A stretch of 63,879 nucleotides of DNA. Origin: Halorussus litoreus (GTDB taxonomy: Archaea; Halobacteriota; Halobacteria; Halobacteriales; Haladaptataceae). The DNA lies in NCBI RefSeq assembly GCF_003382685.1, contig NZ_KZ859510.1, forward strand, positions 47,699 through 111,577. Reading direction: 5' to 3'. The translations under genes and the position numbers were made by a program. The notes below the pieces were generated by a model. The model was not told the origin of the DNA. It saw only the letters and a list, made by a program, of their open reading frames with translations, and ran no database searches. Positions 710 through 63,879 of the stretch are shown here, in pieces (position 1 is the stretch's first letter; each line of letters starts with the position of its first letter).

Positions 710-1897
710 CTATCGCGACGCCCGTTCCCGTTCGCGCACCGGTTCCTCGTTCGGAGTGAAGCGTTCGCTCCGGCCGCTCTTCTGGATGATGTCGAACGCG
801 GTCATCAGGTCGGTCCGCGAGAGCAGCCCCGTCAGCGCCCCGTCGGCGTCGACGACCAGCAGGCGACCGATGCCGTGCTCCTGGATCTTCTCGAACGCGG
901 TCATCGCCTCGTCGGAGGCTGGGATGGTCTTCAGGTCGGTGCTCATCACGTCCCGGACCGTGTAGGCGTCGCGTTCGACTTCGGACACCTGCCGGGCGTC
1001 GTCGAGGGTGACCATCCCCACGAGTTCGCCGTTCTCCACGACCGGAAAGCCCGTGTGGCGCTCGCGGAACATCGCCTCCATCAGGTCCGCGACCGACTCG
1101 TCGGGCGAGACGGTGTCGAGCTCGTCGCTCTCGGTCATCACGTCGCGGACGCGCACGTCGCTGAACGCGGCGTTCATCACGGTCTGCTGGGCTTCGCTGG
1201 TCGCGCCGATGTAGATGAAGAAGGCGATGCCGATGAGGACGATGCCGCCGTTGAACAGCCCGAACAGGCCGAGCAGGACCGCGAACACCTTGCCGACCTC
1301 CGCGGCGGTGCTGGTGGCGCTGGCGAACGACCGGTTCCGGGCGAGCAGCGCCCGGAGCACCCGCCCGCCGTCCATCGGGAAGCCGGGCAAGAGGTTGAAC
1401 GCGGCCAGCGCGAGGTTCATCAGCGCGAGGTAGCCGAAGACGAACCGGACCGTCGGGAGCCCGGCCGGAATCGCGACGAACGCGAGCGCCGAGACGACCC
1501 CGAGTGCGATACTGACCGCCGGACCGGCGAGCGCGATGAAGAACTCCTGTCGCCAGTCCTCGGGCTGGTCGGTGAGCCGGGCGATGCCGCCGAACAGCCA
1601 GAGCGTGATGGAGTCGATGGGGAAGCCGTAGCGCATGGCAACCAGCGAGTGGCCGAGTTCGTGGAGCACGACCCCGACGAACAGCCCGACAGCGGCGACC
1701 GCGCCGAGCACCCACTGCATCTGTCCTGCGGTCAGCGCGTCCGCGTCGAGGGCCGGCGTGGCGAACGCGTTGAGGTAGTCCGCCCAGAGCTCGACCTGCG
1801 TGCCGATGAGCCACGCGAACACCGGCAGGATGAGCAGGAACGTCAGGTCGAGCTTGATCGGGATGCCGAACGCCCGCCCCACCGTGAAGCTTCGCAT
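710..1897 (-). CDS. Site-2 protease family intramembrane metalloprotease with C-terminal CBS pair
   Basis: This is a membrane zinc protease of the S2P/SpoIVFB type (395 aa). The start MRSFTVGRAFGIPIK is chosen because it matches the conserved N-terminus; an in-frame upstream extension looks non-coding. The HELGH zinc motif lies in the second membrane segment, and FNLLPGFPMDGG supplies the second metal-ligand motif near residue 200. Hydrophobic helices fill roughly the first 230 residues. Two CBS domains follow (about 245-300 and 310-370), which usually sense adenosine nucleotides. It is the first gene of a two-gene unit with SRAP. The cleaved substrate cannot be inferred. Confidence 0.95.
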   Translation of the reverse strand: MRSFTVGRAFGIPIKLDLTFLLILPVFAWLIGTQVELWADYLNAFATPALDADALTAGQMQWVLGAVAAVGLFVGVVLHELGHSLVAMRYGFPIDSITLWLFGGIARLTDQPEDWRQEFFIALAGPAVSIALGVVSALAFVAIPAGLPTVRFVFGYLALMNLALAAFNLLPGFPMDGGRVLRALLARNRSFASATSTAAEVGKVFAVLLGLFGLFNGGIVLIGIAFFIYIGATSEAQQTVMNAAFSDVRVRDVMTESDELDTVSPDESVADLMEAMFRERHTGFPVVENGELVGMVTLDDARQVSEVERDAYTVRDVMSTDLKTIPASDEAMTAFEKIQEHGIGRLLVVDADGALTGLLSRTDLMTAFDIIQKSGRSERFTPNEEPVRERERASR

Positions 1898-2032
1898 ACG
1901 TACGACTATCGGTGGCAGGGCCTTAACGGTGGTTGGTGAACGGTGGGAAGAGGGGCCCGATTTGTCCATCCCGAAGCGCAGTTAGGCGAACCCAAAGTAT
2001 TCAAGAGGCCCCCCGAGACAGACACGTACAAC

Positions 2033-3244
2033 GTGGCGGACACCGACTATTCCAGACGAACCGCGGTCACTGGACTCTCCGTCTCGCCGACGGACGCCGA
2101 ACGGCTTCGGGAGCTGGTCGCCGAGTGGAAGCGGGGCTGCCAGCTTGCGGTCAACGAGGCGTGGGACGTCTGTCACACGAGGAGCGAAGTCCAGCAGTTG
2201 ACGTACGACCGGCTCCGCGAGGAGACCGACCTCGGCAGCCAGCACGCCGTGCTGGCGACCCACCGCGCCGCCGAGGCCATCAAGCGCGCTCGGGACCGGA
2301 GCGGGACCCGGCCGGAGTTCACCAGCCCCACCGTGGCGTTCGACACCCGGACGATGACGGTGTTCGACGACCGGACGGTGAGCCTGACCACGACCGACGA
2401 GCGGATTCGCTGCGACCTGAAGCTCGCGGCCGACGGCGGCTACCAGTCGCGCTATCTCGACGACGAGGACTGGGAGCCGGCCAAGAGCGGACTCCACTAC
2501 CGCGACGGCGAGTTCGTCTTCCACCTCGGATTCCGGACGCCCCGGCCCGCCGTCGACCCGCCGACCGAGGGCGCAACTGTGCTGGGCGTCGACCTCGGCG
2601 TCGAGAACCTGGCGGTCACCAGCACGGCCCGCTTCTTCTCGGGCGGCGAACTCGGCCACCGCCGGGAGGAGTTCGAGCGCGTGCGGTCGTCACTGGGCGC
2701 GACGGGCACCCGGAGCGCGGACCGGACGCTCCGACAGGCGGGCGACCGCCTCGACAGGTTCGTCCGCCAGCGGCTCCACGAGGTGGCGAACGGAATCGTC
2801 GCCGAGGCCGAGGAGTACGACTGCGAACTGATCGCCTTCGGCGAACTCGAAGAGGCCCACGACCTGCTGCCCGGTGCCGGCGCGTTCCACGAATGGCTGT
2901 TCGAGCGACTCCTCTCGTTCGTGGAGTACCGCGCGGCCGAGCGCGACATCCCGGTCGTGGAGGTCAATCCCGAGTACACCAGCCAGCGCTGCATGGAGTG
3001 TGGGTTCACCCATCCGCAGAACCGCGACGTCGAGGCCCACCAGTTCGAGTGCCTGAAGTGCGACGCGTCGGCCCACGACGACTACAACGCCGCCAAGAAC
3101 ATCGCGTTCCGGTGCGTTCGCCGCGGCCCGCTCTCGTCCCGGGGGCTCGGGGCGTCTGCGTGCGCGCTCCAATCGGGGCTCGTGACGCCGGACGACGGCT
3201 TTACTCCCTATGCGGAACTCTCGGAACCGCCGAAGTCGGACTGA
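2033..3244 (+). CDS. tnpB: RNA-guided endonuclease TnpB (IS200/IS605 OrfB)
   Basis: This is a TnpB nuclease of about 403 aa that uses a transposon-end RNA to cut DNA. The RuvC motifs are intact: LGVDLGVENL (first Asp), IAFGELEE (Glu), and DDYNAAKNIA (last Asp). A four-Cys zinc ribbon (CMECG ... CLKCD) lies between the last two. I chose the GTG at 2033 (protein begins VADTDYSRR); an AAGTATTCAA TATA-like element lies about 35 nt upstream. There is no TnpA partner, so it is a lone IS1341-type element, probably not autonomously mobile. The 3' end is 81 nt from repeat unit a. Confidence 0.93.
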   Translation: MADTDYSRRTAVTGLSVSPTDAERLRELVAEWKRGCQLAVNEAWDVCHTRSEVQQLTYDRLREETDLGSQHAVLATHRAAEAIKRARDRSGTRPEFTSPTVAFDTRTMTVFDDRTVSLTTTDERIRCDLKLAADGGYQSRYLDDEDWEPAKSGLHYRDGEFVFHLGFRTPRPAVDPPTEGATVLGVDLGVENLAVTSTARFFSGGELGHRREEFERVRSSLGATGTRSADRTLRQAGDRLDRFVRQRLHEVANGIVAEAEEYDCELIAFGELEEAHDLLPGAGAFHEWLFERLLSFVEYRAAERDIPVVEVNPEYTSQRCMECGFTHPQNRDVEAHQFECLKCDASAHDDYNAAKNIAFRCVRRGPLSSRGLGASACALQSGLVTPDDGFTPYAELSEPPKSD

Positions 3245-3325
3245 TTATCTGTTCGGTGTCATTTCTCGGCCTCCCGTACTCTACCATGCCTCGGAATTGC
3301 AATCGGGCTTCTCGAAACCTTTCAA

Positions 3326-3433
3326 CCCGGCGCGCGCGAGGATGCTGGGGAGGCGTGAGGCCCGCGGCCGCGGGGCGGCCGCGGTGTAACGCGGTGCTGT
3401 GCGGTCACGCCTGTGCCTCGGTTGTAGCTAGCT
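3326..3433 (-). repeat. Dispersed palindromic element, unit a (short form)
   Basis: Read on the minus strand, the unit starts with GCTAGCTA, passes through an ACCGC-rich stretch and a CTCCCCAGC block, and ends at GCGCGCGCCGGG. The distal part lacks about 60 bp present in unit b. A 9-bp inverted repeat (CCGCGGCCG / CGGCCGCGG) lies at about 3361-3384. It faces unit b across 1 kb. Confidence 0.85.
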
Positions 3434-3559
3434 TGGATCGATACAACCCGTCGAAACCATCTGTTGACTACCGGAACTCGTAACGCAACTTTCTCGCCAC
3501 GCGAAGCAACGTTTCGCTCGGACGCAACCTTACTTAGTCTCCCGCGCGTACGGTCGCGC

Positions 3560-3934
3560 ATGAGCCAGCAGGCCAAACCGCTGATCCGCCGCAAGGACGA
3601 CATCGAGTACGAGGACGTGGGCGCTGCCGAGGGAATGCGCAAGGGCGTCCTCGTCTCCGAGGACCACGGCGCGCCGAACTTCGCCATCCGGCGGTTCGAA
3701 CTCGACCCCGGCGCGTCGGTGCCAGAACACACCAACGAGGTCGAACACGAGCAGTACGTCCTCTCTGGCGAGTACACGGTCGGAATCGACGACGAGGAGT
3801 ACACCGTGAGTGAGGGCGATTCGCTGCTCATCCCGGCGGGCGTCGTCCACTGGTACCGAAACGAGGGCGACGAACCGGGGTCGTTCCTCTGCGCGGTGCC
3901 GAACGGCGACGACGAGATCGAACTGGTGGAGTAG
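3560..3934 (+). CDS. Cupin domain-containing protein
   Basis: This is a single-domain cupin of 124 aa with a double-stranded beta-helix. Cupin motif 1 is seen as PEHTNEVEHEQYVLSGEY, with candidate metal ligands His, His and Glu. Motif 2 is GDSLLIPAGVVHWYRN, with the final His ligand. It is likely a cytoplasmic metal-binding enzyme or sensor; the substrate is unknown. The ATG at 3560 (MSQQAKPLIRR) is chosen because the codons upstream do not look coding. The gene sits inside the 1-kb segment bounded by repeat units a and b. Confidence 0.92.
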   Translation: MSQQAKPLIRRKDDIEYEDVGAAEGMRKGVLVSEDHGAPNFAIRRFELDPGASVPEHTNEVEHEQYVLSGEYTVGIDDEEYTVSEGDSLLIPAGVVHWYRNEGDEPGSFLCAVPNGDDEIELVE

Positions 3935-4019
3935 CGAAGCTGTGGGGAATCGCGGAGCGCTGACGAAAAAGCGCAGTTCTCGGACGAAAATAGCTACTCG
4001 GTCGACGGTCTCGGACGAA

Positions 4020-4193
4020 CTACTCGCGTTCGGGAAGCGAGACGAGGGCCGAAATGTCGGCGGAGATCCACGCGTCGGCGGCCGAGTCGTCCTGCATCAG
4101 GACCGTCGGCCGTCCGTCCGCGTCGTCGTCGATCTCAAGCGTCACTTTGTCGTCGAACCGCTCGGGTAACCGCTCGTTCTGTCTCCCCCTCAT
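4020..4193 (-). CDS. Small acidic conserved haloarchaeal protein (DUF7331-like)
   Basis: This is a protein of about 57 aa beginning MRGRQNERLPERFDDK. The segment VTLEIDDDADGRPTVLMQDD and the following ADAWISADIS match a small protein family I recall from many haloarchaea. There is no signal peptide and no membrane segment. Function is unknown. The start could lie 11 codons upstream (MVSSARV). It is convergent with the cupin gene, and both are enclosed by repeat units a and b. Confidence 0.75.
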   Translation of the reverse strand: MRGRQNERLPERFDDKVTLEIDDDADGRPTVLMQDDSAADAWISADISALVSLPERE

Positions 4194-4433
4194 GTCTGGT
4201 GAATCCACGCGGGCACTGCTTACCACGAGACGGGCTTTGTTATTTGCCGGTTGCCTGGACGGTATTGGCAGAATAACCCTCTCGGTGTTCTGTTACGCTG
4301 GCGTTAACCAACGGTATTGGCGTATTTCTCGGGCTTGTTTTCCTGTATCCCTAGCGAATTGCGGTGGTTTCTGGAGTGTCTCGGTCCTCTTACTCTGGTT
4401 TTTTCGAATTGCTGATTCTGGACGACCGAGACC
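4194..4433. other. Gene-poor, relatively AT-rich spacer before repeat unit b
   Basis: About 240 bp with locally lower GC than its surroundings. I see no convincing reading frame or RNA gene. It holds the upstream region of the small acidic gene and ends at the GCTAGCTA of unit b. Confidence 0.6.
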
Positions 4434-9547: not shown

Positions 9548-11695
9548 GTGACCGACGATCCGACCTGCGACGACTCGACCTTCGACGTCGACCGCCGGAC
9601 CGTCCTCGGCGCGCTCGCCGCGGCCGGTGGAGCGAGTCTGGCTGGCTGTTCGGCACTCGAACGCAGCAGTGACAGTCCGACGACCCCGGTGGACGAGGAC
9701 ACCGCCCGAGCGCTGGCGACGCGGTTCGCCCCGACGCTGTACTTCGACGAAAACGAGCCGTGGTTCCCGACCGACCCCCGGCCCTACACCAGCGAGCGGG
9801 ACGGCGAGACAATCGTCACCGGATTCGACGCCTTCGACGGCTACCACGAGCGGTTCGAAGACGGGAGTCCACCGAACCCGACCGCGTTCTACCACGCCGT
9901 CGAGTACGAGGAGTCGCCTCTCGCCGTGGTCCAGTTCTGGTTCTACTCGGTGTTCGACCAGTTCACGACTAACTTCCACTGGCACGACTGGGAAGTGCTG
10001 CACGTCTTCGTCGACACGGAGACCGACGAACCCCAACTGTACGTCGCCAGTTCCCACTCCCGGAAGGTTCCCAACAACGAGTTTCTGGACCCCGGCCCAG
10101 AGCGCGTCCCGCGCATCCTCACGGAACTCGGCTCCCATTCGAGCACGCTCTCGGTCAACGACGTCGCCGACCGCTTCCAGCGGATCGGCGTCGAGGACCT
10201 GCTGGCGGACATCACGAACACCGCAATCGACGGCATCGAGGACCTCGCCGACGCCGAGATCCCGCTCGCGTACGGCCTGCCGCGCGACGAGGGGTCGCGG
10301 CTCCCCTACGTCGTCCCGGAGTTCGAGGGCGAGCCGATATACGACCACGACCGCCTGCCGTCGGTCACCCGCGAGTCGCTGGTCCCCGCAGGTCTGACCG
10401 TTCGGTCCTTCGACGCGCTGTCGTCTGCGCCGACCGACCTCCCGACACGCGAGACGGGGCTCGTCTTCCGGCACAGCGAGCGCGACACCGACGCCGACGC
10501 CGACGTGGATTACGACCTCCTCCCGAGTAGCGAAATAGAAGGGATCGCCGATTTCACGGGACCACAGTTGAGCTTCGAGTTCGCCGTCCCGGACGCCGTC
10601 GAAGACGCCATGTCGGGCCACATCACGACGACGGGAGCGCCGTGGGGCCAGCCTCGCTTCGAGAACCCGGCGGCGGACATCTCCGTCCCGAACCACCGCA
10701 CGGCGCTGGCCGACCGCTACGACGCCATCGGCGAGGCGGCCCCGATAAACACCGTGGTCTCCCGCGTTACGGAGGCGGTCACGGCCGACGACGCGCCGGA
10801 GGACGAGGGGTTGACCACGACCGAGGCGTCCGTCGAGTCGGTCGCGCTGCTGGAGAGCGACCCGGAGGCGGTCCCGACGTTCACGGGTATCGCGGTCGTG
10901 CAGGACGTCCCCGCCGGCGACCATCGATTGACGGTCAACGGCGCTGGTCGAGCGCCACACAGCGAACGCGTGTCGGTGTCGGACGACGAGGCGACCACGG
11001 CCGCCGGTATCGGCGGCGAGATCCCGCTCGTCGCGCGCGACCGTGCGACGAAGTTGGAGGTAGGCGGTGAGGACGCCGAGACGGACCTCGCGGCGGTGGC
11101 TCTCGAAGACGACTTCGCCGGTCGCCTCTACGAATCACCGGTGGACGGGCGCGATACCGTCTACGTCCACGCTGGCGGAGCCTACACCACCGAGGTCCGG
11201 GACGGCGACGACGCCGTCGGAGCCTACCGAGTGAACCCCGACCCCGAGAGCGAGTCGGCGGTCCGCATCGAGCGCCCCGAGACCGGCAAAGCGTCGCTCT
11301 CGACGTTCGTGGTCGACGTCGCCGAGGAGACGCGAGCGGAGGTCGCGGCGCTCGCCGACGAGGAGGACGGTGATGGGGCGGGCGGTGACGAGGAGGGGAA
11401 CAACGACGATACCGGCCAGCAAGGCGGCGGCTCGTCGAACGCCCTCAGAGGGCTCGAACGCGCCCTCCAGGCCATCGTCGAGGCCGCACGGCGGGCCGCC
11501 GAGCGAGCGCGCGAGAACGACCGAGCCAACGCCGACAAGCAACTCGAAACGGTCGCCGAGCGCCTCCAGCGGATGGAGCGTCGGATCGACGACGCGAGCG
11601 ACGATTTGCCGGAGTCGTTCTCGAACGCGGCGCGGAACAGAATGAAGCAGGCTGACCGGCGCGCCGACCAAGCCCGAAACGCCGAGAAACTCTGA
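9548..11695 (+). CDS. Tat lipoprotein with Vps62-like domain and C-terminal coiled coil
   Basis: Predicted surface lipoprotein of 715 aa. The N-terminus has a twin-arginine stretch (DRRTVLGALAAAG) and lipobox LAGC. Residues of about 50-290 resemble the Vps62/DUF946 fold: FAPTLYFDENEPWFPTD, VVQFWFYSVFDQF, then NFHWHDWEVLHVF. The HxHDWE string also recalls the GHRHDWE motif of NPP1/NLP proteins, though overall similarity is not obvious. A beta-rich middle leads to an acidic Gly-rich linker (about 595-625) and an Arg/Glu/Ala coiled coil to the C-terminus. Start is GTG. It stands alone between tRNA-Pro and the pst operon. Function unknown. Confidence 0.8.
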   Translation: MTDDPTCDDSTFDVDRRTVLGALAAAGGASLAGCSALERSSDSPTTPVDEDTARALATRFAPTLYFDENEPWFPTDPRPYTSERDGETIVTGFDAFDGYHERFEDGSPPNPTAFYHAVEYEESPLAVVQFWFYSVFDQFTTNFHWHDWEVLHVFVDTETDEPQLYVASSHSRKVPNNEFLDPGPERVPRILTELGSHSSTLSVNDVADRFQRIGVEDLLADITNTAIDGIEDLADAEIPLAYGLPRDEGSRLPYVVPEFEGEPIYDHDRLPSVTRESLVPAGLTVRSFDALSSAPTDLPTRETGLVFRHSERDTDADADVDYDLLPSSEIEGIADFTGPQLSFEFAVPDAVEDAMSGHITTTGAPWGQPRFENPAADISVPNHRTALADRYDAIGEAAPINTVVSRVTEAVTADDAPEDEGLTTTEASVESVALLESDPEAVPTFTGIAVVQDVPAGDHRLTVNGAGRAPHSERVSVSDDEATTAAGIGGEIPLVARDRATKLEVGGEDAETDLAAVALEDDFAGRLYESPVDGRDTVYVHAGGAYTTEVRDGDDAVGAYRVNPDPESESAVRIERPETGKASLSTFVVDVAEETRAEVAALADEEDGDGAGGDEEGNNDDTGQQGGGSSNALRGLERALQAIVEAARRAAERARENDRANADKQLETVAERLQRMERRIDDASDDLPESFSNAARNRMKQADRRADQARNAEKL

Positions 11696-27674: not shown

Positions 27675-28289
27675 ATGGTGAACCTCGACTGGCGCGTCGA
27701 ATCGCGCGCCGGAGTCTCGCTGGTGACGCTCGTCGTCGAGAACCCGACACCGACCCCGCGCCGCGTTCGAGTCGCCAACCGACTCGACGGCCCGATTCGG
27801 CCGCCGCGGCGTGAGGGCGTCCCAGAGGCCGGGTGGGACGACGGCGGCTTCGAGGGCGTCGTCGCGGCCGGGGCGACCCGAGCGCTCGGCTACGCCTGCC
27901 CCGCACCGCCCGCCGAGCCCCCGGCCGAACTCGTCTGGACCGAGCGCGCCGGGGAAACCGAACGTGCAGGAAAAACTGAGGATCGAGACGGTGGCCCCGT
28001 CGCTTCGGAGGCCACGCCCGAGGGCGTCGTGCGCGCGCTCGGAACTGCGCGCCCGCCCGCGGACGCCGTGCCCGCCTCGCTCCCCGAGCCACGCTCCGCG
28101 TCCGCGATCCCCGACGCCGTGGCGTCGTGGCTGACGGCGGTCGAAGAGCGCGCGGCCGACGATGATGGGGATGGCGACGAACTCACGGCCGACGATAGCG
28201 CGGCCCTCGACGCCGTCGCCCATAGAATCGAGGCGCTTCGCTCGCGAGAAAGCGAGCCTTCGCCCGCCGACTCGGGGAGGTCGCCGTGA
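27675..28289 (+). CDS. Conserved haloarchaeal protein (DUF7857-like)
   Basis: This 204-aa protein starts MVNLDWRVESRAGVSLVT. The first 95 residues look like an immunoglobulin-like or CARDB-like beta domain (LVVENPTPTPRRVRVANRL). The C-terminal half is Ala/Asp/Glu-rich and probably disordered before a short helix. The ATG is picked by TATA spacing. It overlaps the following ATPase gene by 4 nt. Function unknown. Confidence 0.8.
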   Translation: MVNLDWRVESRAGVSLVTLVVENPTPTPRRVRVANRLDGPIRPPRREGVPEAGWDDGGFEGVVAAGATRALGYACPAPPAEPPAELVWTERAGETERAGKTEDRDGGPVASEATPEGVVRALGTARPPADAVPASLPEPRSASAIPDAVASWLTAVEERAADDDGDGDELTADDSAALDAVAHRIEALRSRESEPSPADSGRSP

Positions 28290-28987
28290 TCCTCGCGGTC
28301 GCGGGCGGGAAGGGCGGCGTCGGCAAGTCGACGGTCGCGCTCAACCTCGGCGCGGAACTCGACGCCGTGGTCGTGGACGCCGACCTCGCGATGGCCGACC
28401 TCGCGGCCGGGCGTGGTCCCGACCTCCACGACGTGCTTGCCGGGCGGGCCGCGCCCCTCGAAGCCGTGCGCGAGGACGGTCCCGTCGCGCTGCTCCCGTG
28501 CGGGCGCACACTTGCGGGTGCGCGGGCGGCCGACGCGCGGCGACTCGTCGAGACTGTCGAAGCGGTCGCCGAGGCGTACGGCCGCGTGGTCGTCGACTCG
28601 CCCGCCGGGATGGCCGCAGACGCGGGGATGCCCCTGCTGGCGGCCGACGCTGCGGTGCTGGTCGCCGCACCCCGGGAGTACGCGCTGGCCGACGCCATCC
28701 GGACGCGCGAACTCGCCCGGGAACTCGACGCCGGACTGGCCGCGGTGGCACTGAATCGGACCGCGGGTGCCTGCCGAATCACGAGCGCCTCTCGGACCGA
28801 ATCGACCGATTCGGTCCGAGAGGCGCTCGGCGCACCGGTCGTGGCGATTCCCGACGACGACAGGGTCCGGCGCGCGCAGCGACAGGGTTGGCCAGTGTCG
28901 GTGCTCGCGCCCGACAGCACCCCCGCTGATCGGTTCCGTGAACTCGCGCGAGAAGTCGACGACGTCCGTCAGTTCCGCGAGTCCTGA
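28286..28987 (+). CDS. MinD/ParA-type P-loop ATPase
   Basis: This 233-aa ATPase of the SIMIBI class has the deviant Walker A KGGVGKST at residues 9-16, with the signature Lys at 9. VVVDADLAMADLAAG and VVVDSPAGM supply the other motifs. Start is GTG overlapping the previous stop. MinD/ParA proteins position or partition cargo, or regulate assembly at membranes; no membrane-targeting helix is obvious at the C-terminus. A 48-bp perfect interrupted palindrome lies inside the gene (see separate entry). Confidence 0.92.
   Translation: MILAVAGGKGGVGKSTVALNLGAELDAVVVDADLAMADLAAGRGPDLHDVLAGRAAPLEAVREDGPVALLPCGRTLAGARAADARRLVETVEAVAEAYGRVVVDSPAGMAADAGMPLLAADAAVLVAAPREYALADAIRTRELARELDAGLAAVALNRTAGACRITSASRTESTDSVREALGAPVVAIPDDDRVRRAQRQGWPVSVLAPDSTPADRFRELAREVDDVRQFRES
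28782..28829. repeat. Perfect 23-bp inverted repeat with 2-nt spacer, inside a CDS
   Basis: The left arm 28782-28804 is the exact reverse complement of 28807-28829; the spacer is AC. It encodes part of the ASRTESTDSVREAL stretch of the MinD-like protein. Such a structure can extrude a cruciform or form an mRNA hairpin. Confidence 0.97.
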
Positions 28988-37663: not shown

Positions 37664-38542
37664 TCAGGGCGCGGCGACCCCCCGGACCCCGCGCAATCCG
37701 AGGATCTGGTAGTTCCAGCCGTCGCCGACCGATAGCAGGAACGTGCCGTCCTCGGTGACCGCGTATGCGCCCGTCGGATCGGTTTCGCCGTGATCGAGCG
37801 CGATGACCTCGCCGTCCACCGGCAACTCTACCTCGTGCCATTCGACCCCGTCTGCACCTCGGTCCTCGCGTGCGAGCAAGCGGCCGTCCGCGCGTGCGGC
37901 GTGCGCCCACTCGGGAATCCCAGCCACTCCTTCCGTCGACTCCTCCACGGATCCCCCCGCCGACCGCTCTCCGGCGCTGACCGCCCGGAACTCACCCTCG
38001 AGTTCGTCCAGCCAGCCGTTGCCGAGCCGGTACAGCCCGTCCGCGGTCGCGGCCCGCGGCGCGCCGCGGGCCGCGACCGCGCGGGCGTCGTCGAGGCCGA
38101 CGTGTCGGAGGCTCGTACCGGTGACTCGATAGACGCCCGATTCCGCGGCGAGGAAGTCGCCGTCGATGGCTCGCACGTCGTCCAGTTCGCCGAGAGTGGT
38201 CCAGTCGTGACTGTCGCCGCACTCGATTCGGCCGTCCTCGTGGGCCACGAGCAGGTCCCCGTCCGAGAAGCCGACCGCGACCGCCGGGCCGACTCCGAGC
38301 GCTTCGAACTCGGTGTCGTCCTCCCCGGCGGTGCCGACCAGCACGTCCTCGTCGGTCGCGACCGCGACGCGGCCGTCGCTCCCGGCTGCGTCGCGGGCCG
38401 AGCACTCGCGAGCGAGGCCGAATTCGCCCACGAGGTCGTCGGAGGTGTCCACGCGGGCCACGCCGAACTCGCCGACCACGTAGACGGGCCTCGGCCCCTC
38501 GCTGGCGTCGTACACCCGCTTCTCGTCGATGCTGATGCCCAT
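37664..38542 (-). CDS. HVO_0234-family beta-propeller protein
   Basis: This 292-aa protein starts MGISIDEKRVYDASEG. Repeated short strands of the type GVYRVTGTSLRHVG, DGLYRLGNGWLDEL and GTFLLSVGDGWNYQI suggest a propeller. The family is named after a Haloferax volcanii protein. There is no signal peptide, so it is probably cytoplasmic; function unknown. It precedes prs by about 65 nt and may share a transcript. A 40-bp perfect palindrome lies in the gene. Confidence 0.88.
   Translation of the reverse strand: MGISIDEKRVYDASEGPRPVYVVGEFGVARVDTSDDLVGEFGLARECSARDAAGSDGRVAVATDEDVLVGTAGEDDTEFEALGVGPAVAVGFSDGDLLVAHEDGRIECGDSHDWTTLGELDDVRAIDGDFLAAESGVYRVTGTSLRHVGLDDARAVAARGAPRAATADGLYRLGNGWLDELEGEFRAVSAGERSAGGSVEESTEGVAGIPEWAHAARADGRLLAREDRGADGVEWHEVELPVDGEVIALDHGETDPTGAYAVTEDGTFLLSVGDGWNYQILGLRGVRGVAAP
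38042..38081. repeat. Perfect 40-bp palindrome inside a CDS
   Basis: Positions 38042-38061 are the exact reverse complement of 38062-38081, with no spacer and GGCGCGCC at the centre. It encodes part of the DARAVAARGAPRAATADG stretch of the propeller protein. Confidence 0.97.
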
Positions 38543-38631: not shown

Positions 38632-38790
38632 GCTAGCTATTGCTTGAGCCTCTGAGAACCGCACCGCACGGCACCGCGACCGCACCGCACGACACCACCT
38701 GGTACCGCGACCGCCCCGCACGACACCGCAACCGCACCGCGCCCCGTACCTCCCCGCCGCGCTCGCGCAGTATTGCGCGAGCGCGGCGCA
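38632..38790 (+). repeat. Dispersed palindromic element, unit d (solo)
   Basis: It starts GCTAGCTATTGCTTGAGCC, continues with ACCGC-type repeats, and ends in a 15-bp perfect hairpin (arms 38755-38769 and 38774-38788, loop GTAT). No facing partner is present. It lies between the divergent propeller and glmM genes. Confidence 0.87.
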
Positions 38791-62814: not shown

Positions 62815-63756
62815 TTATTTTTCGGCAATCTGTTCGGCCACGGCGTCGAGGTGATCCAGTCCGACGACGGCGACGACGTCGCCCTGTGAGGAGAGCCCGG
62901 CGAGTTCCGCCGCCATGCACTCCTCGCGGGTCTCGTCCCGGAGACGGACCGGCCGCGGCGGGTCGAACGCCCGAAGGAGCGACTGCGAGCGGCGGGCCTG
63001 CTCGCACTCGTCACGGGCCTGCACGGCCGGCGGGTCCGACCGGTCGCAGTCGTGAGCCACGGGGTCGTCGACCTCCACGCGGAGCGAGGTTCGGTCGGCG
63101 ACCGCGGCGGCGGCCCGGCAGACCAGCGCGTGGCGCGTCACCGACGCGACGCCCGAGGCCACCCGCCGGAGCGTACCCAGCGACGCGCGCTCGTCCCAGC
63201 AGTTCCGGGCGAGTCGCGCGAAAAAGGCGGGCGTCGGGGCGTCGACGCCGACCACCTCGGCGTCGCACTCGTCGGCGGCCTGCGCGGCGGCGCTCATCTC
63301 GCCGCCGAACGACGGCAGGGCGTCCGAGTCGCGAGCGTAGGCCCGGTAGAGCGGTGTCGCGACCGGCGGCAGTTCGAGCGCGACGGTCGCGGGGTCGCGC
63401 TCGCGGACGAGTTCGCGGGCGCGGTACGCGCTCGCGGGGTGGTCGTGGACCACGCCGACGAGGGTCACGTCGCCGGCGTCGTTCCCGCCTGCGGCAGAAA
63501 TGGTCCGGACGAACTGGCCGTTCGTTCGGGGGTCGTCGGTGGTCTGCGAGCCGTCGCTGGCCGATGCGGAATCGGCGGGCCCGGAGCAGTCGGACGCGTC
63601 CGAGCAGTTGGACGCACCCGAGCAGTCGGACTCGCCGGACGCGTCCGGCGAGTCCGACTGCTCGGGTGCGCTCGGGGAGTCTGGGGTCGCGTCGACCGAT
63701 TCGGAGGGCGATTCGAGCGGGTCGGGCGATTCGGAGGAGTTGGAGGGCGCGGACAT
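62815..63756 (-). CDS. TraB/GumN-family protein with Ser/Asp-rich N-terminal extension
   Basis: This 313-aa protein has a family core from about residue 95: VTLVGVVHDHPASAYRAREL, VALELPPVATPLYRAY, and VVAVVGLDHLDAVAEQI at the C-terminus. The core includes conserved His and Glu residues proposed to bind metal. The first 85 residues are a low-complexity Ser/Asp/Pro segment encoded partly by a 58-bp perfect palindrome. No membrane helix is evident, unlike longer archaeal TraB proteins. Confidence 0.85.
   Translation of the reverse strand: MSAPSNSSESPDPLESPSESVDATPDSPSAPEQSDSPDASGESDCSGASNCSDASDCSGPADSASASDGSQTTDDPRTNGQFVRTISAAGGNDAGDVTLVGVVHDHPASAYRARELVRERDPATVALELPPVATPLYRAYARDSDALPSFGGEMSAAAQAADECDAEVVGVDAPTPAFFARLARNCWDERASLGTLRRVASGVASVTRHALVCRAAAAVADRTSLRVEVDDPVAHDCDRSDPPAVQARDECEQARRSQSLLRAFDPPRPVRLRDETREECMAAELAGLSSQGDVVAVVGLDHLDAVAEQIAEK
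63613..63670. repeat. Perfect 58-bp palindrome inside a CDS
   Basis: Positions 63613-63641 are the exact reverse complement of 63642-63670, with no spacer. The adjacent sequence has repeated short GCAGTCGGA/GAGCAGT motifs. It encodes the Ser/Asp-rich extension of the TraB-family protein. Confidence 0.97.
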
Positions 63757-63879
63757 CGACGTGGCAGGTGGTATCAGTGGCCCCTCTTAATCGTTCCGTA
63801 CTCGGTACGGGAGCTATTCGGACGCGTCGGCAGAGCTATTATTGGCGGTGGGCCGGTCAGAAAGCCGCCCTGAAGCGGT

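Follow-up and report, generated by a model that had tools for sequence, protein, structure and literature searches.

The window analysed here, a stretch of 63,879 nucleotides from Halorussus litoreus, forms the terminal 63.9 kb of a contig 111,577 bp long, whose end coincides with window position 63879. Near this end, a gene for a protein of 313 aa carries in its N-terminal part a perfect palindrome of 58 bp, built from two 29-bp arms with neither spacer nor mismatch (Table 1). The sequence-only reading which had drawn attention to the palindrome proved exact in coordinates, arm length and the absence of spacer and mismatches, and it had also correctly placed the palindrome within a coding gene and in a Ser/Asp-rich context. 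At 209 bp from the contig end, the palindrome is located near the end of the assembly, not at it.

Table 1 Features of the window discussed in the text (window coordinates)
Feature	Position	Strand	Remarks
58-bp perfect palindrome	63613..63670	.	centre between 63641 and 63642
Gene of 313 aa holding the 58-bp palindrome	62815..63756	-	distant TraB/PrgY/GumN-like, below family cut-off
N-terminal Ser/Asp/Glu/Pro-rich tail, ~74 aa	63535..63756	-	variable length in orthologs
Coding-upstream arm	63642..63670	-	encodes APEQSDSPD; composition matches relatives' tails; probably older arm
Coding-downstream arm	63613..63641	-	encodes SGESDCSGA; has Cys and Gly; probably inverted copy (order inferred)
Imperfect 18-bp tandem repeat, 2.7 copies	63584..63631	.	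overlaps downstream arm
Second palindrome, arms 23, loop 2	28782..28829	+	in ParA/MinD-like gene (28286-28987, +)
Third palindrome, arms 20, no loop	38042..38081	-	in-frame within 322-codon open frame
Fourth palindrome, arms 15, loop 4	38755..38788	.	CGCAG-TATT-GCG type; outside scored open frames

The 58-bp palindrome far exceeds chance expectation. When the codons of the N-terminal stretch (82 codons) were shuffled in order, the longest arm in 4000 trials was 13 bp, and synonymous resampling of the palindromic peptide under genome codon usage gave a probability of 1.0e-4 for a perfect palindrome, a value conditional on a palindrome-compatible peptide being already given. Chance and codon bias as sources of the palindrome are ruled out by these shuffles and the resampling. 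Pairing across the arms extends to both rare wobble codons, GCA at 4.9% of Ala and GGT at 9.3% of Gly.

The host gene was compared with Pfam family TraB_PrgY_gumN (PF01963), against which it scored 14.9 bits with a curated cut-off of 26.8 bits; its orthologs in the tested relatives likewise stay under the cut-off (13.4-18.1 bits). The previously suggested TraB-family label thus holds as a weak likeness, but not as family membership. Orthologs were found in 16 of 17 genomes of the genus, and all readable ones except that of G017 begin with a variable Ser/Asp/Glu/Pro-rich tail followed by a conserved DPR...YVRT segment. Because every readable ortholog but one possesses such a tail, the tail is a feature of the genus. 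At none of the ortholog loci did the tail segment contain a spacerless palindrome with arms of at least 8 bp, and the palindromic segment is therefore private to the H. litoreus genome. The description of the region as a non-conserved extension consequently applies to the palindromic segment alone, the Ser/Asp-rich tail itself being genus-wide. A match in Pseudoclavibacter (L039) was discarded as a relative since it reflects low-complexity Ser/Asp matching only.

The palindrome is centred within a GCG codon, between its first and second bases, so that wobble positions pair with wobble positions and first with second codon positions. This register sets TCN (Ser) against GAN (Asp/Glu), CCN (Pro) against GGN (Gly), CAG (Gln) against TGC (Cys) and GCN (Ala) against GCN (Ala), and the encoded peptide, SAPEQSDSPDASGESDCSGA, follows this mapping. 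An antisense open frame of 96 codons (63500-63790, +) is Ser/Asp-rich as well, which is a trivial consequence of the wobble-to-wobble register. In the tails of 13 relatives, comprising 517 residues, there are 90 Pro and 11 Gly residues and no Cys. Since Cys and Gly are foreign to this family of tails, residue composition points to the downstream arm as probably the inverted copy of an older upstream arm. The order of events is complicated by the 18-bp tandem repeat overlapping the downstream arm, as the juxtaposition of diverged repeats and perfect arms implies more than a single step. The orthologs lack the 58-bp palindrome, and their tails are too low in complexity to align well enough for reading the ancestral state or the copied arm.

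Palindromes of this kind are abundant in the genome, and three further ones lie in the window itself (Table 1). Applying a census with the same settings to all genomes (perfect arms, loop of at most 10 nt), we counted 28 palindromes with arms of 20-30 bp in 864 kb of sampled H. litoreus sequence (GC 0.658), 19 of them with arms of at least 22 bp, and in this genome the rarity ascribed to such structures beforehand does not hold; simple extrapolation gives about 120 with arms of at least 20 bp in the whole genome. Considering arms of at least 16 bp, about half of the palindromes are inside genes and a loop of 0 is the commonest class (14 of 43). Furthermore, 26 of the 34 palindromes with a score of at least 18 are free of mismatches, and with so few mismatches the events are young or kept perfect. 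One PAP2-phosphatase-like gene holds two independent palindromes (L098:10958-11003 and 11152-11194, arms 22 and 21), both in frame.

We aligned eleven gene-internal palindromes with their orthologs, a set picked from sites with the frame agreeing on both sides. The remaining sites, read singly, are mostly intergenic or at gene starts and none proved frame-broken; the frame is undecidable at three of them (L091:13809, L050:14182 and L086:4721), and two in-frame sites (L091:16276 and L057:8065) stood outside the comparison with relatives. The 58-bp palindrome and the others alike pair a source with an immediately adjacent reverse-complement copy. Against the orthologs, the alignments indicate that often one arm is conserved and the other a new reverse-complement copy, either inserted or overwriting ancestral codons; a source arm found in relatives together with a copied arm absent there was observed at three sites. 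In the ParA/MinD-like gene (28782-28829), the right arm encodes SVREALG, conserved in six relatives, and the left arm is an inserted reverse complement of these codons that adds 9 aa relative to the same six, which read NRT..-PPT..VRRALG at this site. In an acyl-ligase-like gene (L093:11346-11381), the peptide DERD(R) is the reverse complement of conserved AVALVA codons and is present in G000, G005 and G009 and missing from G001 and G015. In a mutS-type mismatch-repair gene (L059:5279-5325), the left arm corresponds to a conserved DREAA stretch and the right arm has replaced EELDAIVE-like residues; this template-switch-like event overwrote seven codons with the length unchanged. At 38042-38081, residues are replaced on both arms, again with no length change compared with six relatives. 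In another ligase-like gene (L092:11510), one variable loop carries a different, unrelated palindrome in each of three species, and the process therefore recurs where the protein permits it.

These alignments also bear on the idea of a mobile palindromic repeat that is non-autonomous (REP-, MITE- or PATE-like) and inserts into genes, for which the large number of short palindromes in a single genome would speak. Conserved gene sequence makes up one of the arms at several sites, and this arm therefore was not inserted as part of a unit. In addition, the 58-bp sequence is a single copy in the 3.84-Mb assembly, arm sequences vary from site to site, and only 18 of 1378 palindrome pairs have a 12-mer in common, which is not the pattern of dispersed copies. 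Based on the single copy and the little sequence sharing, we rejected a mobile repeat, whose probability we regard as minimal.

An origin in the assembly or the library had to be considered as well, because fragment-end snap-back or PCR template switching can introduce chimeric palindromes into a consensus, and template switching is reported as a known PCR error (PMC5218489). The draft character of the assembly (75 contigs), poly-G and poly-C runs beside scaffold gaps and the proximity of the 58-bp palindrome to the contig end would be compatible with such a fold-back. However, the frame is kept at every judged gene-internal palindrome with arms of at least 18 bp, about nine of which alter the length, whereas random joins would keep it in about one third of cases. 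The arms are perfect at the consensus level, and the same kind of palindrome occurs in relatives whose assemblies are near-complete (G005, about 4 contigs; G012, about 5 contigs). Two of the poly-G/poly-C runs (L050:14133-14227 and L091:13809-13950) start at the foot of a palindrome, as if a real hairpin had stopped sequencing. Taken together, the palindromes are probably real and not artefacts, and we consider a fold-back unlikely to account for them.

Long poly-G/poly-C runs were noticed at two further places (L051:17182-17264 and L099:11579-11730). Three of the four adjoin N10 scaffold gaps, among them the two that begin at a palindrome foot, and the runs probably represent short-read failure at hairpins. 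Three of eleven inspected contig starts open exactly with a palindrome (L053:1-29, L055:1-22 and L057:1-24, on contigs C5, C6 and C7), suggesting that more or longer ones are hidden in assembly breaks.

If the palindromes are real, they might be selected DNA elements, i.e., cruciform, protein-binding or RNA hairpin sites with a function such as 5' mRNA folding. The mRNA-sense strand of the 58-bp palindrome is indeed predicted to fold into a very stable hairpin (-72 kcal/mol, z = -8.5), and of the 18 palindromes with arms of at least 16 bp that are outside genes, 13 follow a stop codon at a distance of no more than 200 nt, where some may act as 3'-end hairpins. Against selection, the palindrome is absent from every ortholog at this site, the arm sequences are different at each site, and the gene-internal palindromes occupy variable or loop positions. 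The proposal of a cruciform kept for a reason accordingly finds neither conservation of the site nor a shared sequence, and we judge a selected element very unlikely. A hairpin centred on GCAG-NN-CTGC (arms 15-17, loop 2) recurs genus-wide, at L056:7482, L058:14133, L088:11237 and L095:8760 and in relatives at L102:18306, L111:14627, L116:617 and L116:10898; it would seem to be a class of its own, either a conserved site or a 3'-end hairpin.

We favor a mutational origin and regard it as highly probable that the 58-bp palindrome is a product of template switching rather than an element with a job, a guess already made from the sequence and now supported by the inverted-copy footprint of this palindrome class at sister sites. 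Quasipalindrome-associated template switching is established in E. coli (PMC7202029), template switching is likewise established in yeast genes (PMC8604942), and a single switch creates perfect stems, as described for the origin of RNA stems (PMC8794818). During replication, the 3' end of the growing strand would detach from the template close to or within a short stretch of self-complementarity, copy backwards for 20-30 nt along the nascent or the complementary strand and then return. The result would be a reverse-complement copy beside its source, either inserted or replacing the previous sequence; the same switching could also perfect an existing quasi-palindrome. For the 58-bp palindrome, the event would have taken place in the low-constraint Ser/Asp/Pro-rich tail, where, given the register, the inverted copy of Ser would read as Asp/Glu, that of Pro as Gly, that of Gln as Cys and that of Ala again as Ala. 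Owing to this wobble-to-wobble register, the inverted copy would still encode an acidic, disordered, in-frame peptide. Both the polymerase step and the same origin for the 58-bp palindrome itself are what we infer here.

An intrastrand hairpin of the simple type requires a loop of a few unpaired bases. That the zero-loop class is the commonest thus hints at switching to the complementary strand, or at seeds that are short and self-complementary, as opposed to an open-loop hairpin.

The palindromes share features with known systems and depart from them in scale. As in the E. coli thyA/lacZ reporters (PMC7202029), reverse-complement arms are perfected by copying one from the other, yet those are single reporter sites, whereas H. 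litoreus has dozens of sites with arms of up to 30 bp, many of them spacerless, and with whole arms inserted. Coding genes of S. cerevisiae strains similarly undergo in-frame protein change through homogenisation of inverted-repeat arms (PMC8604942), affecting at most five neighbouring residues, in contrast to H. litoreus, where the palindromes are fully perfect and the inserts range from several to tens of residues. RNA hairpin stems resemble our sites in that a single event gives a perfect stem (PMC8794818), but they concern eukaryotic RNA genes, whereas the haloarchaeal sites are mostly in protein genes and in intergenic DNA. In a catalogue of perfect inverted repeats (arms of at least 10, spacers of at most 8) from 118,019 genomes including archaea (PMC13155455), the repeats are mainly intergenic, unlike the H. 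litoreus palindromes; the searched text mentions neither haloarchaea nor template switching. The open-access literature on palindromes, quasipalindromes or template switching in archaea or haloarchaea yielded no description of the pattern seen here, an absence that counts as weak evidence.

Sampling each genome of H. litoreus and 16 sister species revealed an uneven distribution within the genus. H. litoreus, G005, G010 and G012 are palindrome-rich, with 49-144 palindromes with arms of at least 16 bp per Mb, of which 24, 5, 8 and 7, respectively, are gene-internal. The other 13 genomes, pooled to 1.19 Mb, gave ten of this size, one of them inside a gene; with arms of at least 20 bp a single palindrome was found there, compared with the 28 in 864 kb of H. 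litoreus. Hence H. litoreus and at least three other Halorussus species produce or tolerate such events far more than their sisters. As to a single origin of the palindrome-rich trait, a one-gene tree (18 rows, poorly resolved) needs three changes.

Loss of the hairpin nuclease Mre11-Rad50 could let palindromes accumulate, and a first search with an accessory-type Rad50 query indeed gave no match in H. litoreus. However, the core mre11 and rad50 genes are present and open in H. litoreus (L219:4328-5809 and 1665-4388), and the core pair also occurs in palindrome-poor G001 as well as in palindrome-rich G010 and G012. The apparent absence was discarded, because both searches behind it, that for the Pfam zinc hook and that with the first Rad50 query, detect the accessory pair of G009 and G013, the core pair appearing intact from its sequence; we regard nuclease loss as a scarcely credible cause. 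The accessory pair is a second Mre11-Rad50 pair, distinct from the core, located at L195:2168-7667 in G009 and also found in G013, with a NurA-like next gene (L195:6297-7667, assigned by eye only); a diverged accessory pair lies in G005:C3. These accessory pairs possibly belong to a defence or mobile island.

We tentatively suggest, with roughly balanced confidence, that some Halorussus (H. litoreus, G005, G010 and G012) carry a heritable trait, e.g., an altered replication or repair factor, under which template switching is frequent or its palindromes are tolerated. Hundreds of perfect 15-30 bp palindromes would then accumulate in these species, unlike in their sisters, and steadily yield new in-frame peptide segments, with a core Mre11-Rad50 that looks intact in both kinds of species.

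Until now, template switching has been known from reporter sites and scattered evolutionary traces. Per megabase, some Halorussus species contain dozens of such events, fresh and perfect, with many of them in working genes, while most of their sisters contain almost none. As a warning, real palindromes may lie behind some of the gaps and poly-G runs of haloarchaeal assemblies built from short reads. Above all, the contrast between rich and poor species offers a natural comparison for what controls this type of mutation and how new protein segments arise.
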